Shown piece after piece: positions 4,777-30,900 of a stretch of DNA of 53,184 nucleotides. Positions within the stretch are counted from its first letter, which is position 1, and each line of letters begins with the position of its first letter. The notes beneath the pieces are model-generated. The model searched no databases and was not told the DNA's origin. It was given only the letters and a program-made list of their open reading frames with translations. The stretch spans positions 1 through 53,184 of the forward strand of contig DASWRM010000065.1 in assembly GCA_036403155.1 (NCBI GenBank), written 5' to 3'. The DNA is from Gaiellales bacterium (GTDB taxonomy: Bacteria > Actinomycetota > Thermoleophilia > Gaiellales > JAICJC01). The position numbers and the translations under genes are program-made.

Positions 4777-5759
4777 GGGCGGCCGTCGTCGGCGGCGGCA
4801 GCTGGGGCACCGCGTTCGCGCGGCACCTGGCGCTGGCCGGGCACGAGACGACGCTCGTGTGCCGGGACGCCGCGCAGGCGGCGGACATCGGCCGGCGGCA
4901 TCGCAATCCGCGCTACCTCTACGACGTCGAGCTGCCGGCGTCGCTCGCGGCCGCCGGCCTGGAGGACGCGTCGTTCGACGGCGTCGAGCTGGTGGCGATG
5001 GCCGTCCCCAGCCGCGGCTTCGCGGACACGGCCGCGGCCATCGCCGGCCGCCTGCCGGCGCAGGCGTCGCTGCTCTCGCTCACGAAGGGCCTTGACCCTG
5101 CGACCGGCCGGAGGATGTCCGAGATCCTCCGCGAGATCGGCCGCGGCGGCGGGGTGGCCGTGCTGTCGGGGCCCAACCATGCCGAGGAGGTGGCGCGCGA
5201 CTCGCCCACGGCGTCGGTTGTGGCCAGCCAGCCGATCGACCTTGCGCGCGAGCTGCAGGCGGCGCTTTCGACGTCCAGCCTTCGCGTGTACGCGTCCGGC
5301 GACGTGGTCGGGGTGGAACTGTGCGCCGCGGCGAAGAACGTGATGGGCCTGGCCGCCGGGGTCTCGGACGGGCTTGGGTTCGGCGACAACGCCAAGGCGG
5401 CGATGATCACCCGCGGCATGGCCGAGATGAGCCGGCTGGGCGAGGCGTTCGGCGCCCAGCGGCGCACGTTCGCGGGCATGGCCGGCATGGGCGATCTCGT
5501 GGCGACGTGCACGTCCCGCCACTCGCGAAACCGCCGGGCCGGTGAGCTGCTCGCCAAGGGCGTGCCGGGCGACTGGATCGAGCGCGAGATCGGCCAGGCG
5601 GTGGAGGGGCTGACAACGGCGCCTGTGCTCCGCGACCTGGCCCGCGGCCGGGGACTCGAGCTGCCGATCACCGAGGCCGTGTGCGAGGTGGCGGCGGGCG
5701 CGGCGACGCCGCTGGACGCGGTGGCGCGGCTGATGTCGCGCGAGCCCACCGAGGAGTGA
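4773..5759 (+). CDS. gpsA: Glycerol-3-phosphate dehydrogenase [NAD(P)+]
   Basis: Makes sn-glycerol-3-phosphate, the backbone acceptor for the PlsY/PlsC acyltransferases; the PlsC activity is encoded two genes upstream. The 328-aa product begins with the Rossmann motif VVGGGSWGTAFARHL and shows LSGPNHAEEVA, the catalytic-lysine segment AAKNVMGLAAGVSDGLG, and GMGDLVATCTSRHSRNRRAG. The GTG at 4773 overlaps the der stop as GTGA and places the dinucleotide-binding loop at residue 7, as expected; a much longer upstream in-frame ORF inside der is spurious. Last gene of the operon, followed by a terminator-like hairpin. Confidence 0.96.
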   Translation: MRAAVVGGGSWGTAFARHLALAGHETTLVCRDAAQAADIGRRHRNPRYLYDVELPASLAAAGLEDASFDGVELVAMAVPSRGFADTAAAIAGRLPAQASLLSLTKGLDPATGRRMSEILREIGRGGGVAVLSGPNHAEEVARDSPTASVVASQPIDLARELQAALSTSSLRVYASGDVVGVELCAAAKNVMGLAAGVSDGLGFGDNAKAAMITRGMAEMSRLGEAFGAQRRTFAGMAGMGDLVATCTSRHSRNRRAGELLAKGVPGDWIEREIGQAVEGLTTAPVLRDLARGRGLELPITEAVCEVAAGAATPLDAVARLMSREPTEE

Positions 5760-6102
5760 CACCCGGCGTCACGGAAGGCCTCGCCCGAGACTCGTGACGA
5801 TTCCGCAGCGGTGGCCTCATGCGAGCGCGCCAGGGGTATCACGATTGCATCACAGCGCCCGGATCGGGCTCTGAGCCCTTTTCCGGCCGGTAGCGGACGC
5901 GCGGGCGCGGTCGGCGTCACGGATCACCTCGCATCCTCGTGAAGGTGTGGCGGAAGCGGTGCGCCGGCCGTTTCGGGCTCCGACCCCGGAGCGGCCCGCT
6001 CCTGCGCCTGCGAGGCTCGTCTCCGTCACGAGACGCTTCGCATGGTGGCGAATCAGTCGCGGAGCGCGCACGCCGCTCGGCGAGGCGTCGACACCCCGTT
6101 GG
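5760..6102. other. Intergenic region between gpsA and metK
   Basis: About 340 bp without a convincing gene. It holds the terminator-like hairpin (5866-5882), a perfect 6-bp inverted repeat CGTCTC-N6-GAGACG at 6018-6035, and three imperfect copies of CGTCACGGA-like sequence near 5767, 5915 and 6024. The in-frame extension of metK into this region (from 5939) has no conserved sequence. I looked for a SAM riboswitch because metK follows and saw none of the conserved cores I know. Confidence 0.5.
5866..5882 (+). terminator. Possible Rho-independent terminator after gpsA
   Basis: A short hairpin with arms GGGCT and AGCCC and a CTG loop runs straight into TTTT, about 105 nt after the gpsA stop. 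It is the only hairpin plus T-run I found in this GC-rich window. The stem is only 5 bp, so termination is an inference. Confidence 0.4.
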
Positions 6103-6108
6103 TAGCAT
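6103..6108 (+). promoter_or_regulatory. -10 box TAGCAT for leaderless metK
   Basis: TAGCAT ends 7 nt before the GTG at 6116, the spacing seen before many other starts here. It fits a transcript that begins at or very near the start codon. No clear -35 was seen. Confidence 0.5.
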
Positions 6109-6115
6109 GCGGCGC

Positions 6116-7347
<1,232 letters not shown>

Positions 7348-19876: not shown

Positions 19877-20175
19877 ACGAGCGCAACGCGCCCGCAACAT
19901 CCACGTGGAACGACCGTTCGGATCACGCGGCTGCGACGGGCTCGCAACGGCCACCTGGTACGACTTGGTCTCCAATAATTGGGGTGGGGGCGGCGAGCGG
20001 CGCAACCGAGCGGTTGGCGATCACGCGGGTGCAACGCGGGTGCAACTGCCACGCGGTACGGCTTGGTCTCCAATGATTGGGGTGGGGCAGGGAGCGGGCT
20101 CGACCGAGCGGTTGGCGATCACGCGGGTGCAACACGGACGCAACGGACGCCTGGTACGACGTGGTCTCCAATGCC
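19877..20175. repeat. Tandem repeat array with a 98-bp period
   Basis: The stretch between ribH and the dioxygenase gene holds about 2.5-3 units of exactly 98 bp. Anchors recur at fixed spacing: TTGGTCTCCAAT at 19965 and 20063 (GTGGTCTCCAAT at 20161), and GATCACGCGG at 19921, 20019 and 20117. A shortened first unit begins near 19877, with its GCAAC motif 50 bp before the next. Each unit carries paired GCAAC/GCGAC motifs, and two carry the palindrome CCAATNATTGG. No convincing gene. The remaining bases to 20224 show nothing I recognise. Confidence 0.9.
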
Positions 20176-21161: not shown

Positions 21162-21353
21162 TCACACCGCCTTGGTGACGCGCCCGCTCTTCAGGCAGCG
21201 CGTGCACACGTACGCCCGCGTCGGCGACCCGTCGAGCAGGATGCGGATGCGCTGCAGGTTCGGATCGAACCGCCGCTTGGTGGCGACCATCGAGTGACTC
21301 CGGTTGTTGCCGAAGCCCGGCTTCTTCGCGCAGATCACGCAGACTCGGGACAC
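21162..21353 (-). CDS. rpmB: 50S ribosomal protein L28 (zinc form)
   Basis: 63-aa ribosomal protein with [15 protein letters not shown] and a zinc-type pair of CxxC motifs (CVIC near the start, CTRC near the end), i.e. the C+ paralog type. The start is GTG at 21353, giving MSRVCVIC; it is preceded at proper spacing by GGAAAGGA. Divergent from asp23, the arrangement usual in Gram-positive bacteria (rpmB | asp23-like - fakA - recG). Confidence 0.96.
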
Positions 21354-21431: not shown

Positions 21432-21809
21432 ATGAGCAGGGCACAGCTGATCGCCGTGCCGGACACCGGCGAGGTGACCGGGGAGCTGGTCGTCCCCAAC
21501 GAGGTGATCGCGCAGATCGTCGGCCTGACGGTGCTCGAGTGCTATGGGGTGGTCGGCATGGCGGCGACCAGCCTCAGCCAGGGCGTGGCGCGCCTGCTCT
21601 CGCGCGAGCGCATCACGCAGGGCGTGGGTGTCCGCCGCGAGGGCGACACCCTGGCCATCGACCTGTACATCGTCGTCGAGTACGGCCTCAACCTGGCGGA
21701 GGTCGCGACGAACGTGCGCTCGCGGGTCAAGTACATGGTGGAGAAGCTGACCGGCATCCCGGTGGGCGCGCTGCAGATCCACATCCAGGGCGTCAAGCGG
21801 ACGACATGA
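21432..21809 (+). CDS. Asp23/Gls24 family (DUF322) envelope stress protein
   Basis: 125-aa member of the Asp23 family: [19 protein letters not shown], then [10 protein letters not shown]-type sequence ([14 protein letters not shown]), an Arg-rich middle and [21 protein letters not shown]. In Staphylococcus Asp23 is membrane-associated and linked to cell-wall stress; the single-copy version next to fakA is widespread in Gram-positives (YloU). Its ATG overlaps nothing; its stop overlaps the fakAB ATG by 4 bp, a strong sign that the two act together. Confidence 0.9.
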
Positions 21810-24310
21810 CCCCCCGCGAACGCGCGCTCGCGCTGGCGCGGGGAGGGCAGGCGGCGCTCGAGGCGAACCGGCGCCGCATCGACGACCTCAACGTCTACCC
21901 CGTGCCCGACGGCGATACCGGCTCGAACCTGACCGACACCGCGGCCCGCCTGGCCGAGGGGCTCGCCGCACACGCCGGCGAGGACGATCGCGCCGCCATC
22001 GCCCGCGCTGCCACCCGCTCGGCGCTGATGGGCGCCCGCGGCAACAGCGGCGTGATCCTCTCGCAGATGATCCGCGGGTTCGCCGAATCGCTCGGCGCCG
22101 AGCCCGAGCCGGTCACTCCCGCGGGCGTTGCGCGCGCGTTCCGCTCGGCCTCGGACGCCGCGTACGGCGCCGTGCGCCAGCCGGTGGAGGGGACGATGCT
22201 GACAGCCATCCGGCGCATGGCCGAGCGGGCGGAGGCGACCGCCGGCGCCGGGGTCGACCAGCAGTTGGCGGCGGTGCTCGAGGCCGGCGACGACGCGGTC
22301 CGCGACACGCGCGAGATGCTGCCTGTCCTTCGTGACGCCGGGGTGGTGGACGCCGGCGCGGCCGGCCTCGTCGAGTTCGTCCGCGGCGCGATCGCCGGGC
22401 TGGAAGACCGGGATGCACCCGCGAGCCCCCGGCTGGAGGCCGTGCCGCTGCCCGTGGTCGCCGCGGTTCACGTCGACGACTCCGGGTTCCGCTACTGCAC
22501 GTCCTTCCTGGTCGACGCCGAGAGCCTCGACGGCCGCCTGCTCGAGCGCGAGCTGGAGCCGCTCGGCGACTCGCTGCTGGTGGTCGGCGAGGCGCCGACG
22601 CTCAAGGTGCACATCCATACCGACGACCCGGGTGCGGCGCTGTCGGTGGCGGTGCGTGTCGGTGCGCTGTCGCAGGTCGACATCAACGACATGCACGAGG
22701 GGATCCGCGAGCGGTCGCTGCGGCTGCTCCAAGCGTCGCCCATAGCGAGCGAACGGCGCACCCCGGCCCTGGCCGTGGCGGCATCGGCCGACGGCGTGCT
22801 CGCGGCCTTCCGCGATGCGGCGCCGGGAACCGACATCGTCCGGGCCGGCTCCTCCGGCAACCCCAGCGCCGGCGAGATCGCGGGTGCCATCGACGCGGCG
22901 GGCGCCGCCGCGGTGCTCGTCTTTCCGAACAACCCGAACGTGGTGCTCGCCGCCGAGCACGCCGCCACGGTCGGCGACAGGACGGCCCGTGTCGTGCCGA
23001 CCCGGTCGCCCGCCGCGGGGCTGGTGCTGGCGCGGCAGCTCGACCCCGCCGAGAGCCTCGACGCGAACGCCGACCGCCTCACCGCGATCAACGTCGGGCT
23101 GCGCTGCGGCGACGTCGTGGCCGCCGCGCGGGACGCGCGGATGGACGGCGTGGCCGTCTCGGCCGGGGAGTTCATGGCGGTGGTGGAGGGCCGGCTCGTA
23201 TCCGCCCATGCGCAGATCGCGGAGGCCTGCACCGCGCTGCTCGAGCAGCTCGCCGACGGCGCGGGGGAGGTCACCATCCTGCTCGGCGAGGGCAGCGAGC
23301 AGCTCACCCGCGGATGGTTCGACGGCGTCGTTGCGACCCGGCCGGGCATCACCGTCACCGAGATCCCCGCCGGCCAGCCGCTCTACCCCGTGATGGCCTG
23401 CGCCGCTCCACCCGAGGCATCCGTCGCGAGGCCGCGCCGCGCCGACGTCGTCCTGCGCGCCGAGACCACCGCGATCGTTCTGGACTCGACCGCCGACATC
23501 GCCGACCCGCCCGCGCGCCACGCCAACTGGGCCATGGTGCCGCTCACCGTCAGCTTCGGCGGCGAGGTGTTCCGCGACTACGTCGACATCACCCCCGAGC
23601 GGTTCTACGAGCGGCTCCGTGACGCGCGTGAGCTGCCGCGCACCGCCGCACCGTCACCCGGCGCGTGGACGGAGGAGTTCGAGCGCCTCGCCGGCTACGA
23701 CCGGATCCTGGTGCTGCCCGTCTCGAGCCGTGTCTCCGCAAGCTCGCAGAGCGCCGAGATCGCAGCCCGGGACGCCGATCCGACCGCCGGACGGATCCGC
23801 GTGCTCGAGACCGAATCCGTGTCGCTCGGAACGCTCCTGCTCGCGGAGGGGCTGCAGCGCCTGCTCGTCCGGGGCGTGCCCGAGAATGAGCTGATGGCGT
23901 GGTTCGAGGGCGCCCGCTCCCATCTCGGCGTGGTCTTCTCGGTGGAGACGCTCACCTACCTGCAGCGCGGCGGGCGGATCGGCCGTGCGCAGGCGATGGT
24001 CGGAGGGATGCTGGGCGTCCGGCCGATCCTGACGCTGCGCGAGGGCGAGGTGGCGCCGCTGCGCCGCGTCCGCGGGAGGCGTCGGGCGCTGCGCGAGTTC
24101 GAGCGCTTCCTCGTCGAGCGCGCGCACGGCTCCGACGTGCACGTAGCGGTCGTCCACGCCGCCGCGCCGGCGGCCGCCGACGAGCTGGTCGCGATGGTGC
24201 GCCGCGCCGCGCCGCGGGCGGTGATCGACCACGTGGGACAGCTCGGCGCCGTGGTCGGGACGCACGGCGGCCCAGGGACGCTCGGCATGGCCGTCCTGGC
24301 GCAGCCGTGA
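21806..24310 (+). CDS. fakAB: Fatty acid kinase fusion: DAK2 (FakA) + DegV (FakB)
   Basis: An 834-aa chain that joins the two halves of fatty acid kinase. Residues 1 to about 540 match FakA/YloV: the N-terminal DhaL-type ATP-binding domain has [15 protein letters not shown] and [19 protein letters not shown], followed by the YloV middle and C-terminal domains. Residues about 547-834 are a DegV/FakB fatty-acid-binding domain: [23 protein letters not shown] (TSQPS in classical FakB), [29 protein letters not shown], and [15 protein letters not shown] at the end. FakB presents a fatty acid that FakA phosphorylates, giving acyl-phosphate for PlsX/PlsY. In Firmicutes they are separate genes. ATG 21806 overlaps the asp23 stop. 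Confidence 0.9.
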
Positions 24311-26454
24311 CCTCGCCTCGCGCGTTCGGCGGAGCGGTTCTCGACGGACGGTTCCCCGAGCCGAAGACGGCGCCCCGCCCGTCGCACCTCGCCGCCCCTC
24401 CGGCGCCCGACAGCCGGACGCGCGGGCTGCTTCGCGGGCTGCGGCCGCGTCCGGTGCTTGACGTCGGCGACCTGCTCGAGGACGTGCCCTTCCGCCACGA
24501 CGACTTCCGCGAGGCGAGCAGGCTCGCCGACCTGCCCATCGGCGAGGAGGCGACCGTCGAGGTGACCGTCGAAGGAATTCGCGTGCGTCCGACGCGCCGC
24601 CGCAACCTCGTCATCGTCGAGGCCCGCGTCCGCGACGAGTCCGGGCCGGGCGTCGTCGTGTGGTTCAACCAGAGGTATCTGGCCCAGCAGCTGAAGCCGG
24701 GGATGCGGCTGTCGATCCGCGGCGAACGGCGGGGCACCGTGGGCGCCGAGATCGCGGCCAAGCGCCACGAGGTGCTCGACGGCGACGACCGCGTCCGGCA
24801 CACCACCGGACTGGTGCCGGTCTACCACTCGTCCGAGAAGCTCACGAGCCGGCGCATCGGCGAGCTCGTCACCGCGCAGCTGCCCCATGCCGGCGACGTG
24901 CCCGACGCGCTGCCGGCCGCGATGCGCGCGCGTCGGGGACTGCCGCTCCGCCGCGACGCGCTGGTTGCGAGCCACCGGCCGCGTGCGCTCGAGGACGCGG
25001 TGGCCGCCGGACGCCGGCTCGCATTCGAGGAGCTGTTCCTGCTCCAGGCCGGGCTGATCAGCCATCGCCGCGAGCTCGAGCGCACGACGATCGCCCGTGC
25101 GCTCGGGCGGCCGGGCGACCTCAGCGAGCGGTTCCGGACATCCCTGCCGTTTCAGCCGACGGGTGCGCAGGATCGCGCCATGGCGGAGATCGACGCCGAC
25201 CTCGACCGCAGCGTGCCGATGCAGCGGCTGCTCCAGGGGGACGTCGGCTCGGGTAAGACGCTGGTCGCGGTGCACACGCTGCTGCGCGCCGTCGAGCGCG
25301 ATGGGCAGGGAGCGATGATGGCGCCGACCGAGACGCTCGCCAGCCAGCACCTGCTCGGAGTGTCGGCGCTGTGCGAGCCGCTCGGCGTCCGGGTCACACC
25401 GCTGATGCAGGCGATGCCTGCGCGGGAGCGTCGCGCCGCGCTGCAGGTGATCCAGTCGGGCGAGCCGCAGCTGGTGGTCGGCACGCATGCGCTGATCCAG
25501 GACGCGGTCGTGTTCGGCAGGCTGGAGGTCGCCGTGGTCGACGAGCAGCACCGGTTCGGCGTCGAGCAGCGCCAGGCACTGGAGGCGAAGGCGCGGGCCT
25601 CGGGCCATGCTCCGCACGTCCTGCACATGACCGCCACGCCGATCCCGCGGACGCTTGCGCTGACCGTGTACGGGGATCTGGACGTGTCCGTGCTGGACGA
25701 GCTGCCTCCCGGGCGGCGGCCGGTCGTGACCCGGCTCGTCCCGAGGGCGCGCCGCGACGAGGTGTTCGCGCGGATGCGGCGGCTGCTCGGCGAGGGGCGC
25801 CAGGCGTACGTCGTCTGCCCGCTGGTCAGCGAGTCCGAGACCGATCAGGCAGCAGCTGCCGAGACCGAGGCCGAGCGGCTCCGCACGGGCGAGCTGGAGG
25901 GCCACCAGGTCGCGTTCATGCACGGCCAGATGCCGGCTGCGGAGCGCCGTGCGGTGATGGAGCGGTTCCGCGCGGGCGACGTGGCGGTGCTGGTTGCGAC
26001 GACCGTGATCGAGGTTGGCGTGGACGTCCCCAACGCGGTGATCATGGTGATCGAGGAGGCCGACCGTTTCGGCCTCGCCCAGCTGCACCAGCTGCGCGGA
26101 CGGGTCGGGCGCGGGGGGCACGAGAGCTTCTGCATCCTGCTCGCGGACCCGGTCGGGGACGACGCCGTGACGAGGCTGGCCGCGATGGTGCGGACGTCGG
26201 ACGGGTTCGAGCTGGCCGAGGTCGATCTCGAGCTGCGTGGAGAGGGCAGCCTGCTCGCGGCGAGGCAGAGCGGCATCCCCGACCTCCGGCACGCCCGCCT
26301 GTCACAGCACCGGCGGCTGGCGCAGCAGGCGCGGGACGAGGCGAAGCGGTTCCTCGACGCCGATCCCGACCTGCGCTCGCCGGAGGCGGCCGTCATGGCC
26401 GAGGAGGCGCGGCGGATGTTCGGGGAGGACGTGGACTGGCTGACGCGGGCGTAG
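24307..26454 (+). CDS. recG: ATP-dependent DNA helicase RecG
   Basis: Fork-regression and branch-migration helicase. 715 aa: an N-terminal wedge/OB domain (VEVTVEGIRVRPTRRRNLVIVEARV), then the helicase with QPTGAQDRA, GDVGSGKTLVA (Walker A), VVDEQHRFGVEQR (motif II), MTATPIPRTLALT (motif III), VATTVIEVGVDVPNA and QLRGRVGRG (motif VI). GTG 24307 overlaps the fakAB stop (GTGA). The order asp23-fakA-recG-rsmD-coaD is a widespread Gram-positive arrangement, here interrupted by a GNAT gene and a TPR-like gene. Confidence 0.96.
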   Translation: MTSPRAFGGAVLDGRFPEPKTAPRPSHLAAPPAPDSRTRGLLRGLRPRPVLDVGDLLEDVPFRHDDFREASRLADLPIGEEATVEVTVEGIRVRPTRRRNLVIVEARVRDESGPGVVVWFNQRYLAQQLKPGMRLSIRGERRGTVGAEIAAKRHEVLDGDDRVRHTTGLVPVYHSSEKLTSRRIGELVTAQLPHAGDVPDALPAAMRARRGLPLRRDALVASHRPRALEDAVAAGRRLAFEELFLLQAGLISHRRELERTTIARALGRPGDLSERFRTSLPFQPTGAQDRAMAEIDADLDRSVPMQRLLQGDVGSGKTLVAVHTLLRAVERDGQGAMMAPTETLASQHLLGVSALCEPLGVRVTPLMQAMPARERRAALQVIQSGEPQLVVGTHALIQDAVVFGRLEVAVVDEQHRFGVEQRQALEAKARASGHAPHVLHMTATPIPRTLALTVYGDLDVSVLDELPPGRRPVVTRLVPRARRDEVFARMRRLLGEGRQAYVVCPLVSESETDQAAAAETEAERLRTGELEGHQVAFMHGQMPAAERRAVMERFRAGDVAVLVATTVIEVGVDVPNAVIMVIEEADRFGLAQLHQLRGRVGRGGHESFCILLADPVGDDAVTRLAAMVRTSDGFELAEVDLELRGEGSLLAARQSGIPDLRHARLSQHRRLAQQARDEAKRFLDADPDLRSPEAAVMAEEARRMFGEDVDWLTRA

Positions 26455-29817: not shown

Positions 29818-29823
29818 CGGCCC

Positions 29824-30900
29824 ATGAGCGAGGTCACCATCGCGCTCGATGCGATGGGAGGTGACCGGGGCCCGGCGGAGCTCGTGGCCGGAGCCGCCGA
29901 GGCGGCCTCGGAGGGTGTGCGCGTGCTGCTGTGCGGCCGCGAGCAGGAGCTGCGCGAGATCGTGCGCGATGCGGGCGACCCGGACGGGCTGGAGGTGGTC
30001 GACGCGCCCGACGTGATCGACTTCCACGACGAGCCGGCGGCAGCGGTGCGCGCCCGGCCGGCATCGTCGATGGTGACGGCCTGCCGGCTGGTGCGCGAAG
30101 GGCGTGCGGGCGGTGCCATCTCTGCCGGGTCGACCGGTGCGATGCTGGCCGCGTCGCTGCTGACGATGGGGCGCATCCGCGGGGTGCACCGGCCCGCCGT
30201 GGCCGCCCCGCTCCCGGCACACGGCACGCCCTGCATCCTCCTCGACGCGGGCGCCAACTCCGAATCGCGCCCCGAGAACCTGCGCCAGTGGGGAGTGATG
30301 GGCGCGATCTTCGCCGAGGAGGTGCTGGGTGTCGCATCGCCGCGTGTGGGGCTGCTGTCCGTCGGCGAGGAGGCGTCCAAGGGGCCCCCGGAGATCGTCG
30401 AAGCCCATCGGCTGCTGAAGGAGTCGGGCATCGACTTCGCCGGGAACATCGAGGGCCGCGACGCGCTGTCGGGCGACGTGCAGGTGATCGTGTCGGACGG
30501 CTTCTCCGGCAACGTCCTGCTGAAGGGCCTCGAGGGCGCAGGCAAGATGCTGATGCGGGAGCTGCGCGACGCAGCACGCTCGAGCCGCCGTGCGAAGCTG
30601 GGCGCGCTGCTGCTGCTGCCCGCGCTGCAGGGCATGCGCGAGCGGATCGATCCCGAGACCTATGGCGGCGCCTACCTGCTGGGGGTGCGCGGCATCTCGG
30701 TGATCGCCCACGGGAACAGCAGCCGCCGCGCGATCCGCAACGCCGTCCGCGTCGCGGCGGTGGGCGCCGAGCACGACATCGTCGGCAGGATGGCGCAGCG
30801 GCTGGGCGGCGGGGCTCCCGGGTCCGACTTGCAGGACGGCGATCCGGTCAATACAGTCCCGCACGTTCGGAAGTCGGAGATTGGAGAGACTGCACCATGA
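29824..30900 (+). CDS. plsX: Phosphate acyltransferase PlsX
   Basis: Converts acyl-ACP to acyl-phosphate (reversible), the acyl donor for PlsY. 358 aa: [12 protein letters not shown] at the start, [30 protein letters not shown] and [20 protein letters not shown] with FSGNVLLK, then [12 protein letters not shown] near the end. Its stop overlaps the acpP ATG, and AcpP carries its substrate. Acyl-phosphate made here and by the FakA-FakB fusion would enter the same PlsY/PlsC route. Confidence 0.97.

Follow-up and report, generated by a model that had tools for sequence, protein, structure and literature searches.

A FakA-FakB fusion gene in a Gaiellales bacterium and the course of its FakB-docking domain

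The locus analysed here raises the question of what becomes of a fatty-acid kinase when the kinase, FakA, and the fatty-acid carrier, FakB, are encoded as one chain. The assembly of the active FakA-FakB complex is unresolved, and there is no structure of the complex with a fatty acid (PMC11617999). A single-chain enzyme, in which the ratio of the two partners is fixed, would be a convenient object for the study of this complex.

A four-domain chain in the window

The gene lies in the window, that is, the whole stretch of 53,184 nucleotides that was analysed. Its parts and its neighbours are the following:

21806..24310, forward strand: fakA-fakB fusion gene, 834 aa (ORF translation, Pfam, NCBIfam)
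21899..22390, forward strand: FakA_N (N), the DAK2 ATP-binding domain, residues 32-195 (Pfam)
22487..22708, forward strand: FakA_L (L), the middle domain, residues 228-301 (Pfam)
22826..23395, forward strand: FakA_C (C), the FakB-docking domain, residues 341-530 (Pfam)
23396..23467, forward strand: junction, residues 531-554 (alignment, nucleotide reading)
23468..24298, forward strand: DegV/FakB domain (B), residues 555-831 (Pfam, residues, model fold)
21162..21341, reverse strand: rpmB (ribosomal protein L28), a conserved neighbour
21432..21809, forward strand: asp23 (yloU-like), overlapping the fusion gene by 4 nt (ATGA) (neighbourhood annotation)
24307..26454, forward strand: recG, overlapping the fusion gene by 4 nt (GTGA) (neighbourhood annotation)
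29818..30897, forward strand: plsX (neighbourhood annotation)

The fusion gene opens with the ATG at 21806 and closes with the TGA at 24308-24310, with zero internal stops. The Pfam matches follow one another in the order FakA_N, FakA_L, FakA_C and DegV/FakB (Dak2, 5.7e-34; FakA-like_M, 7e-22; FakA-like_C, 2e-40; DegV, 2e-66), all four far above their cut-offs. Moreover, the first part of the protein matched the NCBIfam family YloV (TIGR03599) with 414 bits, against a cut-off of 396, and the last part scored above the cut-off of the NCBIfam family DegV (TIGR00762). Among solved structures, S. suis FakA (7w7h_A, residues 17-530) and T. thermophilus DegV (2dt8, residues 556-828) are closest by sequence. 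Judged by its sequence, the chain belongs to the FakA-FakB fusions and not to the ordinary free FakAs.

The catalytic and ligand residues were numbered as in S. aureus, by motif and not by alignment of the S. aureus sequences themselves. The Mg-nucleotide motif Asn/Asp/Asp/Thr and the equivalents of Asn82 and Asp185, whose roles are described in PMC9136124, are all present in the DAK2 domain (N29, D35, D37, T38, N80 and D182, corresponding to S. aureus N32, D38, D40, T41, N82 and D185). The zinc-site residues of the middle domain, C240, H282 and H284 (PMC9136124, PMC11617999), are all kept as C231, H269 and H271. The FakB residues considered, with roles from PMC8892158, were the carboxylate network of Thr62, Ser95 and His270, Arg173, and Arg205 for contact with FakA and the membrane; the DegV part has T613, S640, R724, R756 and H820 at the positions of T62, S95, R173, R205 and H270 of S. 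aureus FakB1.

Next, the DegV part was modelled alone (pLDDT 93.5, pTM 0.91). In the PDB it is most similar to DegV/FakB structures (TM about 0.83-0.90), several of them loaded with fatty acid, and on this model it adopts the FakB fold. Note that the full-length model (pTM 0.42), whose alignment had no rows over the DegV part, is good for FakA only and unreliable for the arrangement of the domains; alignments mixing partial rows, in which FakA_C/DegV rows landed on the wrong domain, were left out of the folding. The preliminary description had read the gene as FakA and FakB joined in one chain without internal stop, and the ORF, the Pfam and NCBIfam matches, the DegV fold and the FakB residues all agree with it.

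At the junction, the start region of a free DegV is still recognisable (V548 GTC, V549 GTC, L550 CTG), with no start codon, and the fakA stop codon is absent. An internal start that would yield a free FakB was not found, the ATG at M530 having no ribosome-site-like sequence upstream. The sequence LTAE(N/T) before DegV was considered as a common fusion linker and rejected, as it is the N-terminus of free DegV.

The preliminary description had also proposed that fusion would limit the kinase to a single carrier, and that the free DegV genes of this genome should be counted. The count gave zero besides the fused one (draft genome, 79 contigs), and likewise zero in the second species of the genus (G001). 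Fusion as the cause of this limit was, however, not borne out: of nine unfused relatives of the same order, eight have exactly one DegV, and the last has a DegV fragment in addition to its single DegV. Thus, the single carrier predates the fusion. Family f6 holds two systems, one fused and one unfused.

The locus runs from L28, on the opposite strand, through asp23, the fusion gene, recG, an rsmD-like methyltransferase gene and a coaD-like nucleotidyltransferase gene to plsX, with RNase III, smc, ftsY and ffh after it, an arrangement that we take to be much like the Bacillus gene order. PlsX, a known user of acyl-phosphate, is thus encoded in the window downstream of the fusion and PlsY elsewhere in the genome, and therefore the acyl-phosphate would have users. 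Elsewhere in the window (19921-20173), between the riboflavin genes and an opposite-strand gene, there is a tandem repeat with a period of 98 and 2.6 copies.

Other origins and roles of the gene have to be weighed against this reading. An assembly artefact or a sequencing error is conceivable in a draft genome, but we give it practically no credence, since the same uninterrupted four-domain chain is present in an independent genome, the second of the window genus (G001, 64% identity), and the fusion recurs in a second genus, with the sister genus also fused. It could also be that the real carrier is a free DegV, encoded by a second gene or translated from an internal start, and that the fused domain is regulatory. 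FakA_C, which has been retained, could bind such a carrier; nevertheless, neither genome of the genus has a second DegV, the junction sequence speaks against an internal start, and the docking Glu is lost (see below), so we hold this to be very improbable. Finally, DAK2 and EDD-type domains are common to dihydroxyacetone kinases (PMC9136124), and the protein might phosphorylate some other small molecule or lipid instead of a fatty acid. This is quite unlikely, given the FakA-specific middle and C domains, the conserved T62, S95, H270 and R173 of FakB, the fatty-acid-binding DegV proteins among the best structural matches, and plsX in the same gene cluster.

Distribution of the fusions and proposed order of events

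Profiles for the four domains, run on all the relatives collected, showed four states: N-L-C with FakB at another site, N-L-C with FakB next to it, N-L-C-B, and N-L-B, which lacks FakA_C. Two genera of the class were seen to have the complete N-L-C-B chain, the window genus (G000, G001) and a second one (G086, G096); among 396 sampled genomes of the phylum, an unbroken C-B match occurred only in G000, G086 and G096. The N-L-B chain is commoner, with 18 full-length cases among 199 genomes of the class, and is also present in named records of Neomarinimicrobiota, Gemmatimonadota and Spirochaetota. The sister genus (G002-G004), of the same family as the window genus, has this shorter chain. The preliminary description had asked whether the architecture is already a common form. 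This is so for the shorter N-L-B fusion, which is widespread, but not for the full N-L-C-B form, which is rare, being confined to two genera. No paper describing a FakA-FakB fusion, either N-L-C-B or N-L-B, was found in the open-access literature searched. The components and the pathway were already known; the single-chain form and its trajectory would be new.

On both the N-L and the B trees, the window genus (N-L-C-B) groups with the sister genus (N-L-B) in a single clade (SH-aLRT 96 and 98), nested among relatives that have the FakA and DegV genes side by side but unfused. The other C-less fusions of the class (genus g6 and G129) are placed away from this clade, and forcing the C-less fusions of the class into one clade was rejected (AU p 1.9e-5 for N-L, 3.4e-4 for B). 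Since they are not one clade, the C-less fusions of the class arose repeatedly. A deep group, formed by Neomarinimicrobiota, Gemmatimonadota and Spirochaetota together with family f6, is a further C-less lineage. The two N-L-C-B genera may or may not have fused separately (N-L tree p 0.35, B tree p 0.031). Inside the family, we infer the order two genes, then N-L-C-B, then N-L-B.

Several loci of the set differ in other ways. A FakA of 505 aa (L117, G066) has a very divergent FakA_C (23 bits) with the Glu end kept, and is sister to the C-less fusion of G129 on the N-L tree. Beside an N-L-B fusion of the deep group, L118, L119 and L120 (G046, G045 and G047) encode a DAK2-only protein of 228-240 aa, perhaps a remnant of the native FakA. 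In the Eremiobacterota loci L041, L044 and L046, a PlsX-like gene, recognised by sequence, stands between fakA and fakB (about 5530-6560), and at several of these loci two or three fakB genes follow one another. In family f3, of the same order as the window genus, a receiver-only response-regulator gene of about 125 aa occupies a gap of about 400 nt between fakA and fakB (L004-L006, L008-L015, L017-L020, L022-L024, L029, L031 and L083); the four that were tested matched Pfam Response_reg, and G042 is without this gene at that position. No close copy was found in the window genus, where the best match was 39%. A link between acyl-phosphate and the receiver domain is possible in f3.

The FakA_C domain after fusion

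FakA_C binds FakB, an interaction in which two residues are important: Glu548, at the C-terminal end of S. aureus FakA, and Arg205 of FakB (PMC9136124). The acidic end, a feature of Firmicutes, is also nearly universal among the free FakAs of this set: counting only termini uncut by contig ends, 49 of 50 end in Glu or Asp; the sole complete free FakA of the set with another end is L083 (G052; ...LLVFA). At this position the N-L-C-B chains, four in all, carry Ala, Thr, Arg and His, so that none of them has kept the docking residue; in the window protein, the residue is A534.

Moreover, identity in FakA_C between the two window-genus species is 51.3%, whereas N and B would predict 63.4%; this shortfall puts the pair below all 38 matched unfused pairs, although these pairs are not independent. 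The difference is largest in the last 35 FakA_C residues (to about 544), with 30% identity between the two species against 69% (sd 8). However, residues 370-404 and 440-474 are conserved in the window genus as well as in the unfused relatives or better, so that its FakA_C is more than a dead remnant. In the second N-L-C-B genus, only the docking Glu is lost and FakA_C is 70% identical, with no other decay, as would fit a younger fusion there.

The partner residue behaves differently. Of 51 free FakBs, 49 have Arg or Lys at the Arg205 position; all four N-L-C-B chains have Arg there, but only 13 of the 40 N-L-B chains have Arg or Lys. Neither the sister genus nor the deep group has retained this residue. 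Its loss is not a general consequence, because it is kept in the N-L-C-B chains and in the C-less g6 and G129. As a strict result of losing FakA_C, the loss of Arg205 was rejected: of three independent contrasts, a number too small for a test, two went as expected. Taken together, these comparisons suggest that fusion is followed by decay, and in some cases by loss, of the part of the enzyme that formerly gripped the carrier.

Two views of the active site are in print, as summarised in PMC11617999: one has FakA_N acting directly on FakB, the other a site made up jointly of FakA_N and FakA_C. If the latter, reported for S. suis in that summary, were correct, FakA_C would be kept in the window protein because catalysis requires it, and the C-less fusions would act otherwise or be arranged differently. 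The retention of FakA_C in the window genus and the conservation of its body are in line with this possibility, which we nevertheless regard as rather unlikely: the C-less fusions, of repeated origin, keep all the ATP, Mg, zinc-site and R173 residues, and S. aureus FakA_NL is active without FakA_C, with a KM for FakB about 10-fold higher (PMC9136124). The C-less fusions, with every catalytic residue kept, would favour the direct action of FakA_N on FakB. We lean, if only somewhat, towards FakA_C being purely a docking module that became obsolete after fusion and was lost several times, with the window genus as an intermediate. If this is true, the C-less fusions would show that FakA_N phosphorylates the fatty acid sitting in FakB, and the dispute over the Fak active site would be settled against the FakA_C-pocket model. 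As natural variants, these fusions offer a direct test of the role of FakA_C in catalysis, and the series as a whole would display the stepwise loss of a domain's role following gene fusion.

Proposed mechanism and known systems

The window protein is probably a working single-chain fatty-acid kinase, standing between a two-protein ancestor and the C-less fusions. We infer that it carries out both the catalysis and the hand-off of the acyl-phosphate. The fatty acid would be held by the DegV domain, and the DAK2 domain with ATP would phosphorylate its carboxylate while it occupies the DegV pocket; the acyl-phosphate would then pass to PlsY, for phospholipid synthesis, or to PlsX, for acyl-ACP. 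The chains would dimerise through the middle domain, so that the kinase in one chain may act on the DegV in its partner. Tethering would raise the local concentration of the carrier and make docking by FakA_C less needed. This lessened need for a docking surface would account for the missing Glu, for the decayed tail and for the fact that the sister genus has dropped FakA_C.

The window protein resembles Firmicutes FakA (YloV/VfrB) in its three domains and their order, in the nucleotide and zinc-site residues and in the asp23/recG/plsX neighbourhood; it differs in having FakB at the C-terminus, in the lost terminal docking Glu and in the decayed tail of FakA_C. Its DegV domain is like S. aureus FakB1 and T. 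thermophilus 2dt8 in fold and in T62, S95, R173, R205 and H270, but is tethered to the kinase and is the sole DegV of the genome. With the N-L-B fusions of its relatives and of Neomarinimicrobiota, Gemmatimonadota and Spirochaetota, it shares the single chain and the catalytic residues, whereas those fusions lack FakA_C and have often lost Arg205. Finally, the single-chain dihydroxyacetone kinase of Citrobacter freundii also joins a nucleotide domain and a substrate-side domain (PMC9136124), although with another substrate and domain order and without the FakA middle domain.
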